Source: an uncultured Holophagaceae bacterium (GTDB taxonomy: Bacteria; Acidobacteriota; Holophagae; Holophagales; Holophagaceae). From it: a stretch of 64,000 nt of DNA. The stretch lies in NCBI GenBank assembly GCA_903857495.1, contig CAIOFF010000035.1, forward strand, positions 124,001-188,000. The letters are read 5' to 3'. A program made the position numbers and the translations under genes. Shown piece by piece: positions 2,006-64,000 of this stretch; position 1 is the stretch's first letter, and the number at the start of each line of letters is the position of its first letter. Below the pieces are notes generated by a model. That model worked only from the letters and a program-made list of their open reading frames with translations. It searched no databases and was not told where the DNA came from.

Positions 2006-4444
2006 TCAGCGGAACAGCCAGCTGACCTTGGCCTGGATCACGTCATCCGAGGGCAGGTGCCGGAGGAGGGCCAGGTCTGTATAGGCCGCGAGGCTGGCCC
2101 GGTCGTTGATGAGGTCGTTCGTGCTGGCGCCGTGGGTGAAGACGAGGAAGAAGGTCGAGCCGGGCTGGAACTCCCAGCGGGTGATGAGGTTCACGTTCCA
2201 GGTGCGGTAGCTGAAGGCCGTCTGCGGCGTCGTGCCGGCGGGCTGGTCCGCGGGCAGGCCCGCATCCAGCGTGAGGTCGTTGACGTAGTGCTTCAGGTCG
2301 CGGTAGTTCCAGTTGGCCGCCAGCCACTGGCTCAGCAACTGCAGGGACAGCTGCGGCGTGAAGGCATAGGCCAGCCGCAGGGTCTGGTTCAGCTGGTTCA
2401 GCTGCCGGAGGCCGACGATGGGCGTGGCCACGGGCGTCTCCAGCCACTTCTGCTCGCCCGTCTCGCAGGTCACCACGGTGGACAGCTGGAGCTCCAGGGC
2501 GCTCGTGGGCTTCAGCACCAGGAGCTGGGAGGTGTTGGTGGTCGGCCCGCCCTCGGCCCAGGAGCGGCTGCTGGCTAGGCGGAGGTACCAGGGCCGGTTG
2601 GCCGGGGTGTCGAAGCCCAGGCTGGCGTAGGGCACCGAGGGCCGGGCCAGGTACTTCTTCACAGGGTCGGCGTAGGTTCGTAGCTCCCGGTCATCCTCGA
2701 CGGCCCGGTTCACGCCGGTCCCGGCCCAGATGGAGACAAAGTTGGTGAAGTCCGTCCGCGCAGAGCCGTTGAAGTTGCGCAGAAAGGTTCGTCCCGCCTG
2801 GTCCCGGGCCGCGGTGTGGCTGAAGCCCAGGCTCCAGTTCCGCAGCACCCCCCAGGTCTGGTCCCAGGTGCGGGAGAGCGCCGCGTAGAGGCGCTGGTCA
2901 TCGGAGCGGGCCAGGTAGCCCAGGTCGTTGGGGTTGTAGGTCCGACCCGTGTTGATGGCCTGGGACTCGAAGCTCCAGCCCCCCCGCCACTCCTGGTGGT
3001 AGCGCAGGCGGGCCCGCCAGCCCTGCTCCTGGGCGTCCCGGGGGCCGGCCTGGCTGCGGCTGAGGGTGCCCTCCACCAGCCCGCTCTGGTCGGCGGTCTG
3101 GTAGGCGCCGTCCACGGCGTGGACCTGGGCCAGGCGGCCGCTGAGCCCGCCCTGGTGCATGCCCGAGGCGAACCCGCCCACGTAGCTGCCCCGGTCGTCC
3201 AGCAGCTGCTGGACCCGCAGCACGCCGTAGTTGGTGAGGGGCGAGAGCTCGCGCCTGAAGCGGGCTCCGGAGGCATCCTGGAGCACGGCCTGGGCCGGCT
3301 CCACGCTGGCCCCGAGCAGGCCGACGTTGGTGCCGTTGCTGTATTTGGCGGTGTATTTCGCGGCGGCGGTGATATCGGTGGCGTTGGGGCGGTCCACCAG
3401 GCTCTCCCCGGCGTTCAGGGTGGGGTCCGCCACCCCGCGGCCGATGCGCCGGCTGTAGAAGAGGTCCGGTCCCGCCACGCGGAAGAGGTCCATGCCCTCC
3501 AGGAAGAAGGGTCGCTTCTCCGGGAAGAAGGTCTCCACCGTGCCCAGGTTCAGCACCGCCTGGTCCACCTCCACCTGGCCGAAATCCGGCCGGACGGAGA
3601 GGTCCACCTGGGCGTGGGAGCTGAGTCCCCACCGGGCGTCCACGCCGGGGCGCAAGTCCCCGTGGCGGTCATCGTAGCCGCGGGCGGTCTCGAACTTCCG
3701 CGCGGCGGAGAGGTAGGGGACGACCTCCTGGCGGGGCTGCGGCTCCAGGCCCTCGAGCCCCCGGAGCTCGGGGAAGTGGCTCACGAAGCCGCTCCCGCCG
3801 CGGGGCACCACCATCCAGCGGCTGGACTCGCGGGTGACCCCCTGGTCCACCCGGCCGAAGTTGATGCCCCAGGTCTGGGGGCCCTTGCCCGGCTTGAAGC
3901 GCAGGAGCGACAGGGGGATCTTCAGCTCCGCGGTCCAGCCGTCGGCGTCCACGCTGACCGCGCTCTCCCAGACGCCGTCCCAGCTGGCGTTGTAGGTGGC
4001 GTTGTTGTAGATGATCTGGTCCTTCTGCACCCCCGCGGCGTTCACCTCGAAGACCAGGGCGGTGCGGCGGTCGTGGTTGGAGTCGATGGCCACACTGAAC
4101 CAGTCGCTCAGGCTCTCCTGGTCGCGTCGGTGGAGCCGCTGCACCACCGTGGCCTCGCCGTGGTCCAGGACCCGGTCATGGTGCATCCGGGCGCCGACAT
4201 AGAGGAACCGGGCATCGTAGAGGACGCGGACCTCGGTGCGCTGGAGGGCCGGAACTCCCCGCTGCGGCCACTCCTGGGTGAACTCCGTGGCGACGGGGGC
4301 CCTGGCCCAGGCCGCCTCCTCCAGCCGGCCGTCCAGGCGGATGACCATGGCGGCGGGCAGGGCCTGGAGGCTGGACCCGGGTCCCGTGGCAGCCGGGGCT
4401 GATCCAGAGCTCAGGAGGTAGGGCAGCAGGAAGGCGGCGCGCAT
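2006..4444 (-). CDS. DUF5916 outer-membrane protein with N-terminal CBM9-like domain
   Basis: An 812-aa exported protein. The start is placed at MRAAFLLPYLLSSGSAPA, which gives a short signal peptide; the longer ORF in the track adds 151 residues of antisense composition. Residues around 35-240 look like a carbohydrate-binding-module-9-type beta sandwich ('IRLDGRLEEAAWARAP', 'VRVLYDARFLYVGARM', 'WTAELKIPLSLLRF'). Then comes the DUF5916 hallmark 'FFPEKRPFFLEGMDLF', and the C-terminal half consists of amphipathic strands ending in WLFR, consistent with an outer-membrane beta-barrel. The function of the family is unknown. It is convergent with thyX and divergent from the DUF192 gene. Confidence 0.85.
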   Translation of the reverse strand: MRAAFLLPYLLSSGSAPAATGPGSSLQALPAAMVIRLDGRLEEAAWARAPVATEFTQEWPQRGVPALQRTEVRVLYDARFLYVGARMHHDRVLDHGEATVVQRLHRRDQESLSDWFSVAIDSNHDRRTALVFEVNAAGVQKDQIIYNNATYNASWDGVWESAVSVDADGWTAELKIPLSLLRFKPGKGPQTWGINFGRVDQGVTRESSRWMVVPRGGSGFVSHFPELRGLEGLEPQPRQEVVPYLSAARKFETARGYDDRHGDLRPGVDARWGLSSHAQVDLSVRPDFGQVEVDQAVLNLGTVETFFPEKRPFFLEGMDLFRVAGPDLFYSRRIGRGVADPTLNAGESLVDRPNATDITAAAKYTAKYSNGTNVGLLGASVEPAQAVLQDASGARFRRELSPLTNYGVLRVQQLLDDRGSYVGGFASGMHQGGLSGRLAQVHAVDGAYQTADQSGLVEGTLSRSQAGPRDAQEQGWRARLRYHQEWRGGWSFESQAINTGRTYNPNDLGYLARSDDQRLYAALSRTWDQTWGVLRNWSLGFSHTAARDQAGRTFLRNFNGSARTDFTNFVSIWAGTGVNRAVEDDRELRTYADPVKKYLARPSVPYASLGFDTPANRPWYLRLASSRSWAEGGPTTNTSQLLVLKPTSALELQLSTVVTCETGEQKWLETPVATPIVGLRQLNQLNQTLRLAYAFTPQLSLQLLSQWLAANWNYRDLKHYVNDLTLDAGLPADQPAGTTPQTAFSYRTWNVNLITRWEFQPGSTFFLVFTHGASTNDLINDRASLAAYTDLALLRHLPSDDVIQAKVSWLFR

Positions 4445-4549
4445 GGGACTCCTCGCCCATGGTGCCACACCACGCGAGGTATCATGGAGGCGTGGTCGCA
4501 GCCTTGTGCCCGTTGGCACAGCGCCGATCGTGGGTTTCCGGGAGTCCTC

Positions 4550-5032
4550 ATGCGCATGTTGCTCGCCATCCTCCTCTCCCTGCCGCTGCTGGCCGGGGGC
4601 GGGGGAACCGTCACCTTCAAGCAGACCTCTTTCCTGTCTGAGGTCGCGGCCACAGAGCCGGAAAAGGCGAAGGGCCTGATGTACCGGCAGAGCCTGGCGA
4701 AGGACCGCTGCATGTTCTTCGTCTACCCGGCGGACGGCGACCACGCCATCTGGATGAAGAACTGCCTCATCGCCCTCGACGTGGCCTGGGTCGACGCCGA
4801 GGGCCGGGTGGTGGAGACCGTCGAGCACATACCCCCCTGCAGCCCCATGCGCGGCGACGACTGCCCCAGCTACGGCGGGTCCGTGCCGGCCCGACACTTC
4901 ATCGAGTTCGCTGCGGGGACCTTCAAGCGCCTGGGCCTGAAGAAGGGCGACCGGCTGGGCTGGGAGCTCACCCTCGATGATGGCCGGGTCGTGCGCGGCG
5001 GCGTGCCCGCGGCCAAGGCCAAGAAGAAGTAG
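4550..5032 (+). CDS. Exported DUF192 family protein
   Basis: A 160-aa protein starting at MRMLLAILLSLPLLAGGG behind a GGGAGTCCTC ribosome-binding site; the upstream ATG in the track would bury the signal peptide. The mature part carries the DUF192 fold: 'EPEKAKGLMYRQSLAKDRCMFFVY', 'HAIWMKNCLIALDVAWVDAEGRV' and the late 'ARHFIEFAAGTFKRLGLKKGDRL'. The family is small, usually exported and functionally uncharacterised. The Cys residues around 'HIPPCSPMRGDDCPSYGG' could form a disulfide in the periplasm. It ends in an AKAKKK tail. Its stop codon directly abuts the stop of the convergent phosphoesterase-like gene. Confidence 0.88.
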   Translation: MRMLLAILLSLPLLAGGGGTVTFKQTSFLSEVAATEPEKAKGLMYRQSLAKDRCMFFVYPADGDHAIWMKNCLIALDVAWVDAEGRVVETVEHIPPCSPMRGDDCPSYGGSVPARHFIEFAAGTFKRLGLKKGDRLGWELTLDDGRVVRGGVPAAKAKKK

Positions 5033-44251: not shown

Positions 44252-44278
44252 GCCCGCCGGGAGCCCCAGGGAAGGGCC

Positions 44279-44331
44279 GCCATTCGTCCCCCTGCGGCTG
44301 TCATTCGATGCCCCGCAGGTGTCATCCATCG
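44279..44331 (+). promoter_or_regulatory. Three direct repeats at a 21-nt period, candidate LytTR operator
   Basis: CATTCG occurs at 44281 and 44302 and CATCCA at 44323, each preceded by (G/T)(C/T) to give 'GTCATTCG'-like units spaced exactly 21 nt. Direct imperfect repeats about 21 nt apart are the binding arrangement of LytTR response regulators. The array is 78 nt upstream of the first gene of an operon that encodes one (46117-46833). Confidence 0.5.
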
Positions 44332-44408
44332 AGCCGGGTGCACCAAGCCCTGCGAAGGGGTATCTCCTGGTGTGGACGGACAGCCCGCCCCTCACCCAGG
44401 AGTCACCC

Positions 44409-44960
44409 ATGAGCACCCACCCCCTTCGCCTTGCCGCCCTCACCGTGGCCATGCTGGCCATCGGCGTTTCCCTTTCAGCCCAGGGCCGTGGCCCCGGTGC
44501 CCCCGGCCGTGGTCCCGGCGCCCAGCAGGGTCCCGGCCTCCGGGGTCTGAACCTCACCGAGGACCAGCAGACCAAGGTGAAGGCCATCCATGAGCGCCAC
44601 CAGGCCGCCATCAAGGCCAAGGGCGAGGCCGCCCAGGCCGCCCACGAAGCCATGCGCACCGCCATGGCGGATGCCGCCACCGACGCCAAGGCCCTGCGGA
44701 CCCTGCACGACAAGGCCTCTGCCGCCCAGTTCGAGATGATGCTCGAGCACCGGGCCGTGCAGCAGGAGATCCTGCCCCTCCTGACCGCGGAGCAGAAGGC
44801 CAAGTTCCAGAAGGGCCCCATGGGCATGGGCCCCGGCGGCGAGCGCGGCATGGGCCCCGGTCAGGGCAAGGGGCCTCGTGGCAGAGGCGGCATGGGCATG
44901 GGGCGCGGCCCCGGGGGCCCCGGCATGATGGGCCCCGACTGCCCCCCCGCGAAGCCCTGA
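44409..44960 (+). CDS. LTXXQ (Spy/CpxP-like) periplasmic protein with Met/Gly/Pro-rich tail
   Basis: A 183-aa exported protein, start MSTHPLRLAALTVAMLAIGVSLSAQ (signal peptide). The centre has the two LTXXQ motifs, 'GLNLTEDQQTKVKAIHERHQAAIKAK' (about 48) and 'ILPLLTAEQKAKFQKG' (about 125), in a helical hairpin as in Spy and CpxP. The tail (about 137-180) is 'MGMGPGG', 'GMGPGQGKGPRGRGG', 'MGMGRGPGGPGMMGPDC', with seven Met and one Cys, a composition typical of Cu(I)-binding periplasmic regions. The N-terminal stretch after the signal is Gly/Pro/Arg-rich. First gene of the operon with the LytS/LytTR pair; 23 nt to the next gene. Confidence 0.85.
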   Translation: MSTHPLRLAALTVAMLAIGVSLSAQGRGPGAPGRGPGAQQGPGLRGLNLTEDQQTKVKAIHERHQAAIKAKGEAAQAAHEAMRTAMADAATDAKALRTLHDKASAAQFEMMLEHRAVQQEILPLLTAEQKAKFQKGPMGMGPGGERGMGPGQGKGPRGRGGMGMGRGPGGPGMMGPDCPPAKP

Positions 44961-44983
44961 CGAGCCCGGTATCCTGACAGTCC

Positions 44984-46120
44984 ATGCGCGCTTCTGCGGT
45001 CCTGCACACCACCTTCCAGCAGCTGCGGCGCCCCCGAACCTGGGGCGCTGCACTGCTGTTCGGCTTGGTCTGGAACGGCGCCAGGGTGCTCCTGGGCGGC
45101 CCCGAGCCCGGCCCGGTCGAGGCTCTGGTGCCGGTCCTCTGGGTGGCCCTCTTCATGGTGCTGGTGCCGCTGCCCTGGCAGTGGACCGGCGATGACGCAC
45201 CCATGGCCAGCGTGCTGCGCGGGGCCGCCCAGGCCCTGCCCTGGATGGCCGCGCTGACCCTGGGCATTCTGCTGCTCCTGGGCTCGGCCGCACCCCAGGT
45301 GCTGCCCGGCCGGGGCATGGTGCCCGGGATGGGGCCAGGCATGGGTCCGGGCATGAGCATGATGGAGCGCAGCCCGATGCACCGGGGCCTGCGCCCGCCC
45401 CCGGAGGAGGCCCGCTGGCTGGCGATCCACCCCCGGCTCTGGCTGCTGGGCCTGGCGCACTTCTCCTTCGGGCTGTTGCTGGGCTGGGTCCTCGCAGGCC
45501 GTGAGCGGGCCGAGCTGCAGGCGGCCGCCGCGCAGCAGGCGGCGGACGAGGCCAGGGCCCGGGCCCTCCAGGGCCAGATGAATCCCCACGTGCTGTTCAA
45601 TGCCATCAGCGCCCTCACGGAGCTGGTGCGCGAAGACCCAGTGGCGGCAGAGCGCGCCCTGGTCTGCCTGTCGGACCTGCTGCGCGCCCTGCTGGAGCAC
45701 GGGTCGCGCCTGCGGGCGCCTCTGGGCGACGAGCGGCGCCTGGTGGAGCACCACCTGGCCCTGGAGCGGCTCCGTCTGGGGCACCGCCTCCGGGAGAGCT
45801 GGGACTGGCCCGAGGCTCTCGATGCGCTGGAGATCCCGCCTTTGATGGTGCAGCCCCTGGTAGAGAACGCCCTCAAGCACGGCGTCTCCTTGGCCGTGGG
45901 CGGCGGCAGCCTGGATGTGCGCATCACCCGGGAGGCCAACCTGCTCCGGGTGCGCGTCGCCAACACCGGGCCGGCCCCGGCGCCGGGCGAGGGCACCGGC
46001 ATCGGCCTGAAGAATCTGCGCGAGCGGCTGCGACTGCAGGGCGCCCCGGCGGACGCGTTGCAGCTCACCCGCGAGGGCGACTGGACCATCGCCGAGCTGA
46101 AGCTCGAGGTGCTCGCATGA
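44984..46120 (+). CDS. LytS-like sensor histidine kinase with Met-rich periplasmic loop
   Basis: A 378-aa kinase of the His_kinase (PF06580) type. About four membrane segments (roughly 21-37, 45-63, 86-102, 152-171). The loop before the last one, about 108-135, reads 'GRGMVPGMGPGMGPGM' followed by 'SMMERSPMHRG' with seven Met and a His; with the N-terminus inside, this loop is periplasmic. The kinase core has 'QGQMNPHVLFNAISALTELVRED' (His 202), 'PPLMVQPLVENALKHG' and 'GTGIGLKNLRERLRLQ'. The Met-rich loop echoes the tail of the preceding LTXXQ protein. Its stop overlaps the regulator start by 4 nt. Confidence 0.9.
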   Translation: MRASAVLHTTFQQLRRPRTWGAALLFGLVWNGARVLLGGPEPGPVEALVPVLWVALFMVLVPLPWQWTGDDAPMASVLRGAAQALPWMAALTLGILLLLGSAAPQVLPGRGMVPGMGPGMGPGMSMMERSPMHRGLRPPPEEARWLAIHPRLWLLGLAHFSFGLLLGWVLAGRERAELQAAAAQQAADEARARALQGQMNPHVLFNAISALTELVREDPVAAERALVCLSDLLRALLEHGSRLRAPLGDERRLVEHHLALERLRLGHRLRESWDWPEALDALEIPPLMVQPLVENALKHGVSLAVGGGSLDVRITREANLLRVRVANTGPAPAPGEGTGIGLKNLRERLRLQGAPADALQLTREGDWTIAELKLEVLA

Positions 46121-46833
46121 GCAGCTCGGCCCTGCGCGTGCTGGTGGCCGAGGATGAGCCCTTCAACCTGCGACGGCTGACGCGGCTGCTGCGCGAGGCG
46201 GGCTGCGAGGTGGTGGCGGAGCTGGAGGACGGCCCGTCGGTGCTGGCGTGGCTGGCCCAGGGCGAGCCCGTGGACGCGCTGTTCCTCGACATCCAGATGC
46301 CTGGGCTCACGGGTCTGGACCTGGCGGCCGAGCTGGCCCACGAGATTCCCGTGGTGTTCGTCACGGCCTACGCCGAGCACGCCGTGCGGGCCTTCGAGCA
46401 GGCCGCCACGGACTACCTGCTGAAGCCCGTCACCGCCGAGCGACTGGCGGCCACCCTGCAGCGCCTGCGCGCCCCGGCCCAGCGCGACCCGGCCCGGCCC
46501 ACGGGGCCCTTCCGCGTTCCTGTGAAGGCGGGCGAGGGGCTGGTGCTGGTGGACCTGGCGAAGATCACCCACTTCAGCTTCGAGGACGGCGCCGTGTGGG
46601 CCTTCCTGGGCGAGCCCCTGCGCACCACCTGGAAGACCCTGGCCGAGGCCGAGCAGGCCCTGGGGGACCGCGTCGTGCGCGGCCACCGCCACCTGCTGAT
46701 CCGCCCCGAGGCCGTGGTGGGCCTGCGCGCCGGCGAGTCCGGCCGCCTCCTCGTGCGCCTCAGCGGCAACGTCGAGCTCGAAGTCAGCCGTGGCGCCGCG
46801 CCCGCCTTCAAGGCGAGGCTCGGGCTCGCGTAG
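46117..46833 (+). CDS. LytTR-family response regulator
   Basis: A 238-aa regulator. Receiver domain with the phospho-Asp in 'DALFLDIQMPGLTGLDLAAEL' (about D58), acidic pair in 'VLVAEDEPFN' and Lys in 'DYLLKPVTAERL'. The C-terminal ~100 residues are a LytTR DNA-binding domain ('FRVPVKAGEGLVLVDLAKITHFSFEDGAVWAFLGEPLRTTWKTLAEAEQAL', 'FVRGHRHLLIRPEAVVGL'-type 'VVRGHRHLLIRPEAVVGLRAGESGRLLVRLSGNVELEVSR'). Coupled to the kinase gene by an ATGA overlap. It probably binds direct repeats near its own operon. Confidence 0.95.
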   Translation: MSSSALRVLVAEDEPFNLRRLTRLLREAGCEVVAELEDGPSVLAWLAQGEPVDALFLDIQMPGLTGLDLAAELAHEIPVVFVTAYAEHAVRAFEQAATDYLLKPVTAERLAATLQRLRAPAQRDPARPTGPFRVPVKAGEGLVLVDLAKITHFSFEDGAVWAFLGEPLRTTWKTLAEAEQALGDRVVRGHRHLLIRPEAVVGLRAGESGRLLVRLSGNVELEVSRGAAPAFKARLGLA

Positions 46834-58330: not shown

Positions 58331-60571
58331 CTACTTCACCACCATGGTCCGCATCATGTCGTGCTCTTCGTGCTCGAGGATGTGGCAGTGCCAGACGTAC
58401 TCGTGGCCGCCGGTGCGGGGGCTGACGGGGATCTTGAAGGGTACTTGGGGCAGGTTGAACTGCATGATCACCGTGGTGACCTCGCCCGGGTGCATCTTGA
58501 CCGTCTCCTTCCAGCCCACCTCAGTGGCTTCGGGACCGCGCGCGGGGTAGGCAGGGTTGTAGACCGGGACCGCGGGCGTGCCGAGGGGCGTGGCCATGTA
58601 GGCGACGGTGTCGAAGGCCTGGCGGGAGAGGATCTGGGCATTGGCCAGGTGGAAGTGGATCGGGTGGGTGTCCCCGGTGAGGTTGGCGATCTGCCAGACC
58701 TCGGTGCCGCCGCTGACGGGCGTCTCGGTGGCGAGGGAGCCGGCCAGATCCTTGGGGTCGTAGTAGGGGCGGCCGAAGTCCCCGGTGGGGCCAGCTACGT
58801 TGGTGCCGAGCATCTGGATGAGGCGGTTGTTGAGGTCGACGGCTTCGTTCAGGGTCAGCTGGCGGACCACGATGCCCTTGCGGGTGGGGATGGGCAGGGG
58901 CGCGGTGGTGATGGCGTTCCAGCTCAGCTTGCTGACGACAGTGGAGGCCACCGGGCCAGCCAGTGGCAGGTCCATCAGGGAGTTGGAGTCCCCGGCCAGG
59001 GGCGTGGCGGGGATGAGCTTCGAGGGCAGGTCCTTGGCCATGGTCTTGACGTCCAGCTTGACCTCGAAGCGCATGAGGATGGAGGTGTCACCGATGCCAA
59101 GCGCGTTGGGGTAGTCGTTCTCAGGAGCGCCGTTGGGGTAGGGCCCGGGGGCATTGTTGTAGAGGATGTAATTCTTGCCGCCCTTCCCGTTGAGGTCGAG
59201 CACCAGGTCCAGGCGCTCGGCCGGGGCGACGATCAGGCTGCCGCCGGGGGCCGCGGGGTTCACATAGCGTCCGCCGCCGGCATCCGTCAAGGTGATCAGA
59301 TTGGCCTGAGGTACGCTCACCGGGTGAGCCAGGAAGCCGCCCTCGGTACCGATGACGGTCCAGGCGGGGCCGGGCTTGGTGAAGTCCGGCTGGCCGGAGC
59401 CGTTGTCTTCGTAGAGGGCCAGGTTCAGCACCCGGGCATTGCAGGCGTTGAGAACGCGGAGGCGGTAGCGGCGTGGATCCACGGTGGCCTTGGGGTAGGC
59501 GGCGCCGTTGACCAGCATGGTGTCGCCGAAGGCCTCGGGCACCACGGACACGGAGGGAGATGTGCTGGTGTTCCAGCGGTTCGGATCGTACTCGTAGGGG
59601 TACCAGAGGTCCCCGCGGCCCTGGGCGGAGCCCGGGAAGGGGAGGGCGGTCGGGTCGCTGGGTCCGCTGCCGTTCTGGAAGATCTTGTCCTGGAAGATCA
59701 GGGGCAGCTCGCGGCCACCGTTTTCAACGAAGGCGGGCAGCCCGAAGTCACGCACCAGGGTGGACTCGTAGTAGTCCCGGAGGATGTAGGCAGAGGCCAC
59801 GCCGGCATAGGCGTTCAGGCGGGTGATGCCCATGGCGTGGTCGTGGTACCACATCAGGCGGGCGCTCTGGTTGTTGGGGTAGTAGTACTCGGCCTCGTTC
59901 ACCGGCACGGTCTTCGCCGCAGTCTCCAGGGGGCGCAGCACCGCGTTCTGCACGAAGCTGACCCCCTTGTTGCCGATGCGGTCAAAGAAGGCGAAGGGGC
60001 CGCCGTCGCTGAACCAGGGCACCAGCCCGCCGTGGAGGTGGGTACTGGTGCGGTTCTGGGTCACGCTTGGGTCCGAGCCCTGGATGCTGGTGTCCACAGG
60101 AAGGATGTGCTTGTCGGGCAGGTTGTTGCGGAAGGTGATCTGGGTGGGGACCCCCTTCTGGGCGATGATGATGCCGCCGAGGTGCTTCTGCGGCACCAGG
60201 GCGCCCGCGGCCACGCCCAGGGCCAGGGTGGGGTTGTAGCCCCAGAGCGTGGTGGGCGGCAGGCTCGGGTGCAGCTGGTCCTTGAACTGGTTGATCTCGA
60301 TGGTGTAGTGGCTGGCGGTGAGGGTGCTGCCCGTGAAGCGGCGGGTGCCGTCCGGCTGCGCCACAGGGATCAGCCCCGGAGCCCGGAGCTCGGTCATGAA
60401 CTTGGTGAGCACCGGGCTGGACTGCCAGGTGGACGGGGGCGGGGGCGCGTAGGCGCCCTGCGCCTTGAGGCTCTGACCCGAGGCCAGCAGGAGGGCCGCC
60501 AGGCCGAGGAAGGGAAGCCCGGACCGGAAGGGCCGGGAGAAGAGGGCAGGCTGAGACAGGTTGTTATTCAT
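58331..60571 (-). CDS. Multicopper oxidase (CotA/bilirubin-oxidase-like), copy 1
   Basis: A 746-aa exported oxidase, start MNNNLSQPALFSRPFRSGLPFLGLAALLLASGQSLKAQ (long signal peptide). The four copper-binding motifs are present: 'TSTHLHGGL', 'LMWYHDHAMGITRLN', 'DTHPIHFHLAN' and 'HEYVWHCHILEHEEHDMM'. They form the T1 and T2/T3 sites that couple substrate oxidation to oxygen reduction. The length is more than most laccases, with extra insertions in the middle domain. A close paralogue begins at 62773; the last ~60 residues of both are almost identical. Possible metal, phenol or copper-detoxification role. Confidence 0.93.
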   Translation of the reverse strand: MNNNLSQPALFSRPFRSGLPFLGLAALLLASGQSLKAQGAYAPPPPSTWQSSPVLTKFMTELRAPGLIPVAQPDGTRRFTGSTLTASHYTIEINQFKDQLHPSLPPTTLWGYNPTLALGVAAGALVPQKHLGGIIIAQKGVPTQITFRNNLPDKHILPVDTSIQGSDPSVTQNRTSTHLHGGLVPWFSDGGPFAFFDRIGNKGVSFVQNAVLRPLETAAKTVPVNEAEYYYPNNQSARLMWYHDHAMGITRLNAYAGVASAYILRDYYESTLVRDFGLPAFVENGGRELPLIFQDKIFQNGSGPSDPTALPFPGSAQGRGDLWYPYEYDPNRWNTSTSPSVSVVPEAFGDTMLVNGAAYPKATVDPRRYRLRVLNACNARVLNLALYEDNGSGQPDFTKPGPAWTVIGTEGGFLAHPVSVPQANLITLTDAGGGRYVNPAAPGGSLIVAPAERLDLVLDLNGKGGKNYILYNNAPGPYPNGAPENDYPNALGIGDTSILMRFEVKLDVKTMAKDLPSKLIPATPLAGDSNSLMDLPLAGPVASTVVSKLSWNAITTAPLPIPTRKGIVVRQLTLNEAVDLNNRLIQMLGTNVAGPTGDFGRPYYDPKDLAGSLATETPVSGGTEVWQIANLTGDTHPIHFHLANAQILSRQAFDTVAYMATPLGTPAVPVYNPAYPARGPEATEVGWKETVKMHPGEVTTVIMQFNLPQVPFKIPVSPRTGGHEYVWHCHILEHEEHDMMRTMVVK

Positions 60572-62772: not shown

Positions 62773-64000
62773 TCACTGCACCACGAGGGTGCGCATCATG
62801 TCGTGCTCTTCGTGCTCGAGGATGTGGCAGTGCCACACGTACTCGTGGCCGCCGGTGCGGGGGCTGACGGGGATCTTGAAGGGCACCTTGGGCAGGTTGA
62901 ACTGCATGATCACGGTCGTGACCTCACCGGGATGCATCTTGATGGTCTCCTTCCAGCCGAGCTCGGTCGCCTCGGGGCCCCGGGCCGGAATGGTCGGGTA
63001 GTAGGTCGGAACCGCGGGCGAACCGGCTGCGGTGTTCGCATAGGCCACGGTGTCAAACACCCGCCGGGACAGGATCTGGGCATTGGCGAGATGGATATGG
63101 ATCGGGTGCGTGTCACCCGTCAGGTTGGCAATCTCCCAGACCTCGGTCGCACCCGCTGCAGGGGTCTCGGTGGCCTCGGAGAGCGGGAGATCTGCAGGAT
63201 CAAAGTAGGGCCTGGAGAAATCTCCCGCTTTTGGCGCCACGTTGGTTCCGAGCATCTGGATCAGGCGGCCGCTGGCGTCGAAGCCCTCGTTGAGCGTCAG
63301 GTGGCGCACGGTGACCCCCTTGCGGGTCGGAATGGGCAGGGGGGCGGTGGTGGCCGTAAGCCAAGTCAGGAACGGCGTGGGCATGGCGGCCAGATGACCT
63401 GCCAGGGGCGGATCGATCTTGGCATCAGGGTTGCCAGCCATGGGCATGAAGGGCGTGAGCAGCCACGGGGTGTCATTGGGAATGGCCTTGCTGTCCGCCT
63501 TGACCTCGAAGCGCATGAGGACCGACGTATCCCCGATTCCGGCGGCATTGGGATAGTCGTTGGTGAAGGCGCCGTTGGGGTAAGGGGCTGGGGCATCGTT
63601 GTAGAGGATGTACTTCTTGCCAGCCTTGCCGTTGAAGTCCACCACCAGGTCGAAACGCTCGCCGGTCGCCACGATCAGACTCCCGCCCGGGGCGGCCGGA
63701 TCGACATATCGACCCGCCAAGGGATCCACAAAGGTGGTCAGAGGCGCCGAGGGCACGTTCACGGGTCTGGCGAGGAACCCACCCTCGGTGCCGATCACCG
63801 TCCAGTGCGGACCAGGCTTCTTGAAGTTCGGCTGACCATGGCCATTGTCCTCATAGAGCTGAAGGTTGAGGACCCGGGCCTGACAGGCGTTGAGGACCCG
63901 GAAGCGGTAGCGCCGGGGATCCACAGTGGCCTTGGGGAAGGCTGCACCGTTGACCAGCATGGTGTCGCCGAAGGCCTCGGCCACGACGGAGGTGGGAGGC
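62773..64000 (-). CDS. Multicopper oxidase copy 2, partial (N-terminus beyond window)
   Basis: The C-terminal ~409 residues of a paralogue of the oxidase at 58331-60571. The frame stays open to the right edge, and the GTG in the track at 63984 is an internal Val codon (VAEAFGDTMLVNG), so the gene is truncated by the window. Visible copper motifs: 'DTHPIHIHLAN' and 'HEYVWHCHILEHEEHDMM'. The N-terminal HLHG and HDH motifs would lie outside. Most sequence blocks align with copy 1; divergence is greatest in the linker around 'DTPWLLTPFMPMAGNPDAKI'. The 3' ends are close even at DNA level. Confidence 0.93.
   Translation of the reverse strand, partial: PPTSVVAEAFGDTMLVNGAAFPKATVDPRRYRFRVLNACQARVLNLQLYEDNGHGQPNFKKPGPHWTVIGTEGGFLARPVNVPSAPLTTFVDPLAGRYVDPAAPGGSLIVATGERFDLVVDFNGKAGKKYILYNDAPAPYPNGAFTNDYPNAAGIGDTSVLMRFEVKADSKAIPNDTPWLLTPFMPMAGNPDAKIDPPLAGHLAAMPTPFLTWLTATTAPLPIPTRKGVTVRHLTLNEGFDASGRLIQMLGTNVAPKAGDFSRPYFDPADLPLSEATETPAAGATEVWEIANLTGDTHPIHIHLANAQILSRRVFDTVAYANTAAGSPAVPTYYPTIPARGPEATELGWKETIKMHPGEVTTVIMQFNLPKVPFKIPVSPRTGGHEYVWHCHILEHEEHDMMRTLVVQ

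Follow-up and report, generated by a model that had tools for sequence, protein, structure and literature searches.

A conserved LTXXQ, LytS-type kinase and LytTR regulator operon in Holophagaceae, probably an autoregulated envelope-stress module

Two adjacent genes in a genome of the Geothrix group (Holophagaceae, Acidobacteriota) code for proteins with similar segments of unusual composition, rich in Met, Gly and Pro, and this raises the question of what the two have in common. We have analyzed a stretch of 64 kb (the window from here on) in which the first gene codes for an exported LTXXQ protein of Spy/CpxP fold (44409–44960, plus strand, 183 aa), the second for a LytS-type sensor histidine kinase (44984–46120, plus strand, 378 aa) and a third for a response regulator with receiver and LytTR DNA-binding domains (46117–46833, plus strand, 238 aa) that shares 4 bp (ATGA) with the kinase gene. 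A sequence-only reading had recognized the three genes, all confirmed here, and had proposed that they form a sensing module in which both proteins share a ligand, most simply Cu(I) or Ag(I), or contact each other directly.

The first protein is a member of the LTXXQ/CpxP/Spy family by its profile matches (PF07813, 43.5 bits, and PF13801, both above cut-offs), its two LTxxQ motifs (LTEDQ and LTAEQ), a signal peptide at about residues 1–24 (N-terminal sequence MSTHPLRLAALTVAMLAIGVSLSAQ) and a predicted structure that is a confident helical hairpin. The best fold matches were CpxP, Spy and CnrX (probability ~1, no E-value below 0.001), and a sequence-profile search gave Spy and CpxP as well. The C-terminal tail (residues 132–183; 44802–44957, plus strand) is predicted to be disordered (pLDDT ~45–53) and contains seven Met, the same number that had been claimed for it. 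We rejected that such tails are generic to LTXXQ proteins after examining a sample of about 30 LTXXQ loci from Acidobacteriota, Geothrix paralogues included: just one of them, the Geothrix orthologue (L178), combined a GMGPG-type tail and a nearby LytS-type kinase, and the other LTXXQ protein encoded in the genome of the window (L002) is without a tail of this type.

The kinase matched His_kinase (PF06580, 58 bits) and HATPase_c. The NPHxLFN, N and G boxes are present, with the phospho-acceptor His located in NPHVLFN, and H202, N295 and the glycines are invariant in the alignment. Together with the receiver Asp and the LytTR domain of the regulator, this places the pair in the LytS/LytTR families. 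No NCBIfam model was matched by the kinase. For the regulator the nearest named one was BtsR, with a score below the cut-off, while TIGR01387 matched the receiver domain only (39.5 vs. a cut-off of 279.2). The 5TMR-LYT sensor domain of classical LytS was not detected in the profile search, which returned just the two domains mentioned. The AlphaFold model has four N-terminal transmembrane helices (residues 17–36, 44–60, 77–101 and from 150 onwards), the last of them continuing into the dimerisation and ATPase domains, and between helices 3 and 4 the residues 101–147 have pLDDT values below 50. This loop, delimited by hydropathy, alignment and pLDDT (residues 102–148; 45287–45427, plus strand), contains seven Met, and its core motif GMVPGMGPGMGPGMSMM occupies residues 111–127 (45314–45364). 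The ATPase domain has to be in the cytoplasm, and as helix 4 connects it with the loop, the latter would be extracytoplasmic; the predicted four-helix topology therefore supports the periplasmic location that had been claimed and not a cytoplasmic one. The disorder of the loop implies a kinase without a folded extracytoplasmic sensor.

How unusual these segments are was judged in the window and in related loci totalling 327 kb, by scanning open frames of at least 100 aa for stretches of 40 residues with at least 5 Met and at least 45% Gly+Pro. The window gave a single match, the LTXXQ tail, and the kinase loop narrowly failed the threshold (17 Gly+Pro vs. 18 needed). In the related loci, all the sense-strand matches were within the LTXXQ or the kinase gene, and the remaining ones were antisense frames over the same DNA. 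Chance or a genome-wide style of composition was rejected because the sense-frame stretches are confined to these two genes; the shared composition is real, and other parts of these loci seldom have such segments. A recent duplication of DNA from one gene to the other was also rejected, since synonymous codons differ within the repeats of tail and loop (GGC/GGG/GGT, CCC/CCA/CCG), so that no single DNA repeat accounts for both.

The gene arrangement is well conserved. The LTXXQ gene precedes the kinase gene by 11–37 bp in 30/30 Geothrix loci, in which the regulator gene, where readable, overlaps the kinase gene, usually by 4 bp. The LTXXQ-kinase pair was found in 13 further loci (12 from other genera or paralogous copies, plus L085), and the complete triplet recurs in other Holophagaceae. 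In L085 (QVQF01000139.1), a contig titled Methylococcales, a clear Geothrix-type triplet (kinase identity 66%) is probably a binning error. Among 396 Acidobacteriota genomes sampled, the sensor region of the kinase was detected in 36, all of them Holophagaceae, and in none outside this family.

Upstream of the LTXXQ gene there are three direct repeats of consensus CTGYCATTCG, a new feature that is apparently unique in the genome: CCGCCATTCG at 44277, CTGTCATTCG at 44298 and GTGTCATCCA at 44319, spaced by exactly 21 bp. We consider them a putative LytTR operator (44277–44328, plus strand), as direct repeats about 21 bp apart correspond to the layout of published LytTR sites, i.e., repeats of 9–11 nt separated by 11–13 nt (PMC4847170); triple repeats are described for CoxC/RcoM (PMC11347149). 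In 26 Geothrix loci, the self-similarity of this region had its only peak at lag 21 (17.1/26 vs. ~11 at other lags), and 15 loci outside the Geothrix set, analyzed separately, gave 15.0 vs. ~11. Over the 41 loci, the mean at lag 21 was 16.3/26 vs. 11.6 for dinucleotide shuffles, the largest mean of a shuffled replicate being 12.2. The repeats are conserved in most of these loci, with weak triplets in L102, L103 and L113. Further downstream, a box TATCTCCTGGTGTGGACGG (44362–44384, plus strand), near-invariant across the main Geothrix clade, may by its position be a -10 region or transcript start. Just past this putative promoter, at 44375–44395 and in the orthologues, a near-palindromic GGACGGATGATCCGTCC-type sequence is well conserved in the genus; it may be an operator, a hairpin or an element of the 5' UTR.

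No second operator site was found in the own genome at up to 2 mismatches to the first pattern. Over the genus, the exact matches to a refined pattern were all at this locus (9/9), as were 14/15 of those with a single mismatch; a 25-mer at 2 mismatches, identical in many genomes, probably belongs to conserved coding DNA. As the pattern was built from these same loci, what is informative is that sites are absent elsewhere. A larger regulon was thus rejected on the pattern search of the own genome and the genus, in which degenerate sites could be missed, and the regulator most probably acts on its own operon and hardly anything else; both this and the operator function are deduced from pattern and conservation. 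That the three genes are a module, as had been proposed, is supported by the operon order, the short intergenic gap, the kinase/regulator overlap, the conserved putative operator and the extracytoplasmic loop.

The Met content is far less constant. Over 43 homologous pairs, the number of Met varied from 0 to 10 in the loop and from 0 to 9 in the tail. At least 4 Met were found in both segments in 19 pairs, in neither in 13, in the loop only in 8 and in the tail only in 3; among the Met-poor ones, L012 has 1 Met in the loop and 2 in the tail. The expectation that Met-rich segments co-occur in homologous triplets is therefore largely contradicted, with 11/43 pairs discordant and 13/43 Met-poor in both. 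The alignments show that the invariant residues in the repeats of loop and tail are Gly; Met is invariant nowhere, and no conserved Met or His that could act as metal ligand appears in the loop. The loops of close relatives differ in length by PGMG-like units, and distant LTXXQ-kinase pairs have Pro/Arg-rich segments instead.

Using independent contrasts (PIC) on a maximum-likelihood tree built without the repeats, with about 40 tests run, Met of loop and tail covaried (r = 0.42 for fractions, p = 0.010; r = 0.45 for counts, p = 0.005), and Met of the N-terminal linker of the LTXXQ protein, used as control, did not (r = -0.04 with the loop). However, Met of the LTXXQ core also covaried with that of the loop (r = 0.55), so that the proposed coupling of loop and tail has evidence on both sides and the covariation of Met counts is suggestive only. 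Arg covaried too (r = 0.39), and His, Pro and Gly gave no significance after phylogenetic correction. Enrichment of His in both segments is striking in two related loci (L022 and L029), and its covariation was discarded as a signal because it was lost upon correction.

Much of this variation could be neutral, i.e., disordered segments would drift to Gly/Pro repeats in GC-rich genomes, Met would track the repeat copy number and its counts would shift without shared ligand or contact. The PGMG-like steps in loop length, the conservation of Gly and not of Met, the Pro/Arg-rich distant pairs and a covariation that is modest given the many traits tested are all as expected from drift. Yet drift does not easily account for the limitation of such stretches to two genes in 327 kb, for the survival of the Met pair, stated beforehand, after phylogenetic correction while the linker control showed no correlation, or for the scarcity of loop Met in paralogous kinases with other partners. 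We consider this explanation a serious one, although rather less than probable.

These paralogous kinases are informative in their own right. At L128 (2477–3352) and L130 (653–1585) a YaiO-type beta-barrel gene precedes a paralogous kinase with a short GRGG-type loop, and similar genes are found in L127 and L131. At L119 (2878–3351, minus strand) a paralogous LytS-type kinase is preceded by an exported EF-hand protein in which three or more EF-hand repeats are present, an arrangement that may be a calcium-linked variant of this design. The LTXXQ gene can also be downstream (L121, L123) or divergent (L126). The loops of these kinases have no Met in most cases and up to 3 (L125), and Met-rich loops were seen only with an LTXXQ gene directly upstream; these kinases being related, the association is close to one evolutionary contrast. 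The finding of different loops beside different exported partners suggests that loops are partner-specific. As a tentative extension, one four-helix LytS-type kinase may have diversified in Holophagaceae by association with various exported partners encoded in the operon, the loop co-evolving with the partner, and loop and LTXXQ tail being a docking pair of like composition or sharing a ligand. This would make a sensor programmed by its partner and lacking a folded sensor domain, an idea that we consider doubtful.

We have also looked for evidence of the metal proposed as ligand. A module for sensing Cu(I)/Ag(I) would have a Met-rich loop and tail binding the soft metal, the tail as a buffer and the loop triggering the kinase. 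The seven Met in each segment, their covariation, not shared by the N-linker, the His enrichment of L022 and L029 in both segments, and the PF13801 match ('heavy-metal resistance') are in its favor. So are two paralogous multicopper oxidase genes on the minus strand of the window (58334–60571 and 62776–63960), 11–18 kb downstream, with a matching pair in the close relative G045, but such genes are missing within 20 kb in 5/6 other Geothrix genomes checked. The window neighbours are a PstS-like protein, a transglycosylase, an Hpt protein, an L-PSP/RidA protein and an SNF2 helicase, with no metal transporter among those tested. Also in favor, one distant locus of other Holophagaceae (L106, genome G066) has a CusRS-like two-component pair (3674–5000) divergent from the LTXXQ triplet and another is ~5 kb from NosL genes. 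Both segments of L106 are metal-like in appearance, with 8 Met and 4 His in the loop and Cys, Met and His in the tail. A consistent copper or metal-efflux neighbour was found neither beside the operon in the window nor in the other flanks checked, six of Geothrix (20 kb each) and several of Holophagaceae. Besides, operon and operator persist in the discordant and Met-poor pairs, Met is invariant in neither segment, His covariation is not significant once corrected and Met of the LTXXQ core covaries with the loop too. A literature search gave no match combining LTXXQ, methionine-rich and copper, nor Geothrix and LytTR. The data do not support Cu(I)/Ag(I) as a conserved ligand and, as a general explanation, metal sensing seems unlikely; it may apply to the Met-rich lineages, but not as the conserved function on this evidence.

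Met clusters could also be targets of reversible oxidation, the kinase sensing oxidants and the LTXXQ protein protecting damaged envelope proteins. The location of the clusters in disordered, exposed segments and the Spy-type chaperone fold agree with this, but Met is not conserved, no methionine sulfoxide reductase was seen among the annotated neighbour genes and positive evidence was not found. We regard oxidant sensing as very improbable.

The conserved operon, the exported Spy-fold protein, the kinase without folded sensor and the operator-like repeats are best explained together by an autoregulated envelope-stress module with a logic similar to CpxP-CpxAR and ZraP-ZraSR, which we think is the probable function. 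The phosphorylated regulator would bind the three repeats and induce the operon that encodes it. The LTXXQ protein would be the output, a chaperone or buffer that deals with damaged proteins or with ligands in the periplasm, and, by analogy with CpxP/CpxA and ZraP/ZraS, also a feedback signal acting on the kinase through loop and membrane helices, i.e., induced by its own kinase and probably restraining it. The Gly/Pro-rich loop and tail would serve as flexible docking or receiving segments, with a Met content that is variable and lineage-specific and not a conserved sensing chemistry. The contact between LTXXQ protein and kinase is conjectural, and the kinase could instead sense through its membrane helices. 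Envelope stress responses of Acidobacteriota are little studied. In a kinase without folded sensor domain, the control by an exported protein via a disordered loop is a directly testable question, and the putative operator provides an easy reporter for finding the inducer.

The sequence-only reading knew of no described system of this exact design, and this may hold for the families of kinase and regulator, but the logic is shared with two known systems. ZraP is reportedly a repressor of ZraSR. Like here, that system has an exported LTXXQ-family protein, a kinase and a regulator in one locus, and a regulon that is essentially the module itself, the direct targets of ZraR being zraP, zraSR and mgtA (PMC7657598). 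However, ZraR is sigma-54-dependent (NtrC-type) and the LTXXQ tail found in the window is without His. In the Cpx system the regulator CpxR is of OmpR type, and the periplasmic domain of the kinase CpxA is folded. The likeness to it resides in the protein fold and in a small exported protein that is induced by its own regulator and feeds back on the kinase, as CpxAR is inhibited by CpxP (PMC9219993); in the operon described here the kinase has a disordered loop only and the regulon is apparently self-limited. As the kinase and the regulator, with its LytTR output domain and not an NtrC- or OmpR-type one, are of the LytS/LytTR families, the module would work like these systems without being a member of either. 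The comparison with CnrX/NccX is at the level of the helical-hairpin fold, and CnrX works with CnrY/CnrH (ECF sigma), not with a two-component kinase. CusS/CopS/SilS share periplasmic sensing by a kinase, with Met involvement proposed, but belong to another kinase family; TIGR01386 was unmatched here, CusCFBA/CopA neighbours were not found, and the pair corresponds neither to cztS_silS_copS kinases nor to cztR_silR_copR regulators. The BtsSR and YpdAB kind of LytS/LytTR systems has in common the PF06580 kinase, the receiver-LytTR regulator and a direct-repeat operator with 21-bp spacing, the YpdB repeat GGCATTTCAT resembling the half-site found here, and differs in that here the 5TM LYT sensor domain is undetected and an LTXXQ partner gene is within the operon. 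With LytS/LytTR parts, this module seems to have arrived independently at the feedback logic of CpxP and ZraP.
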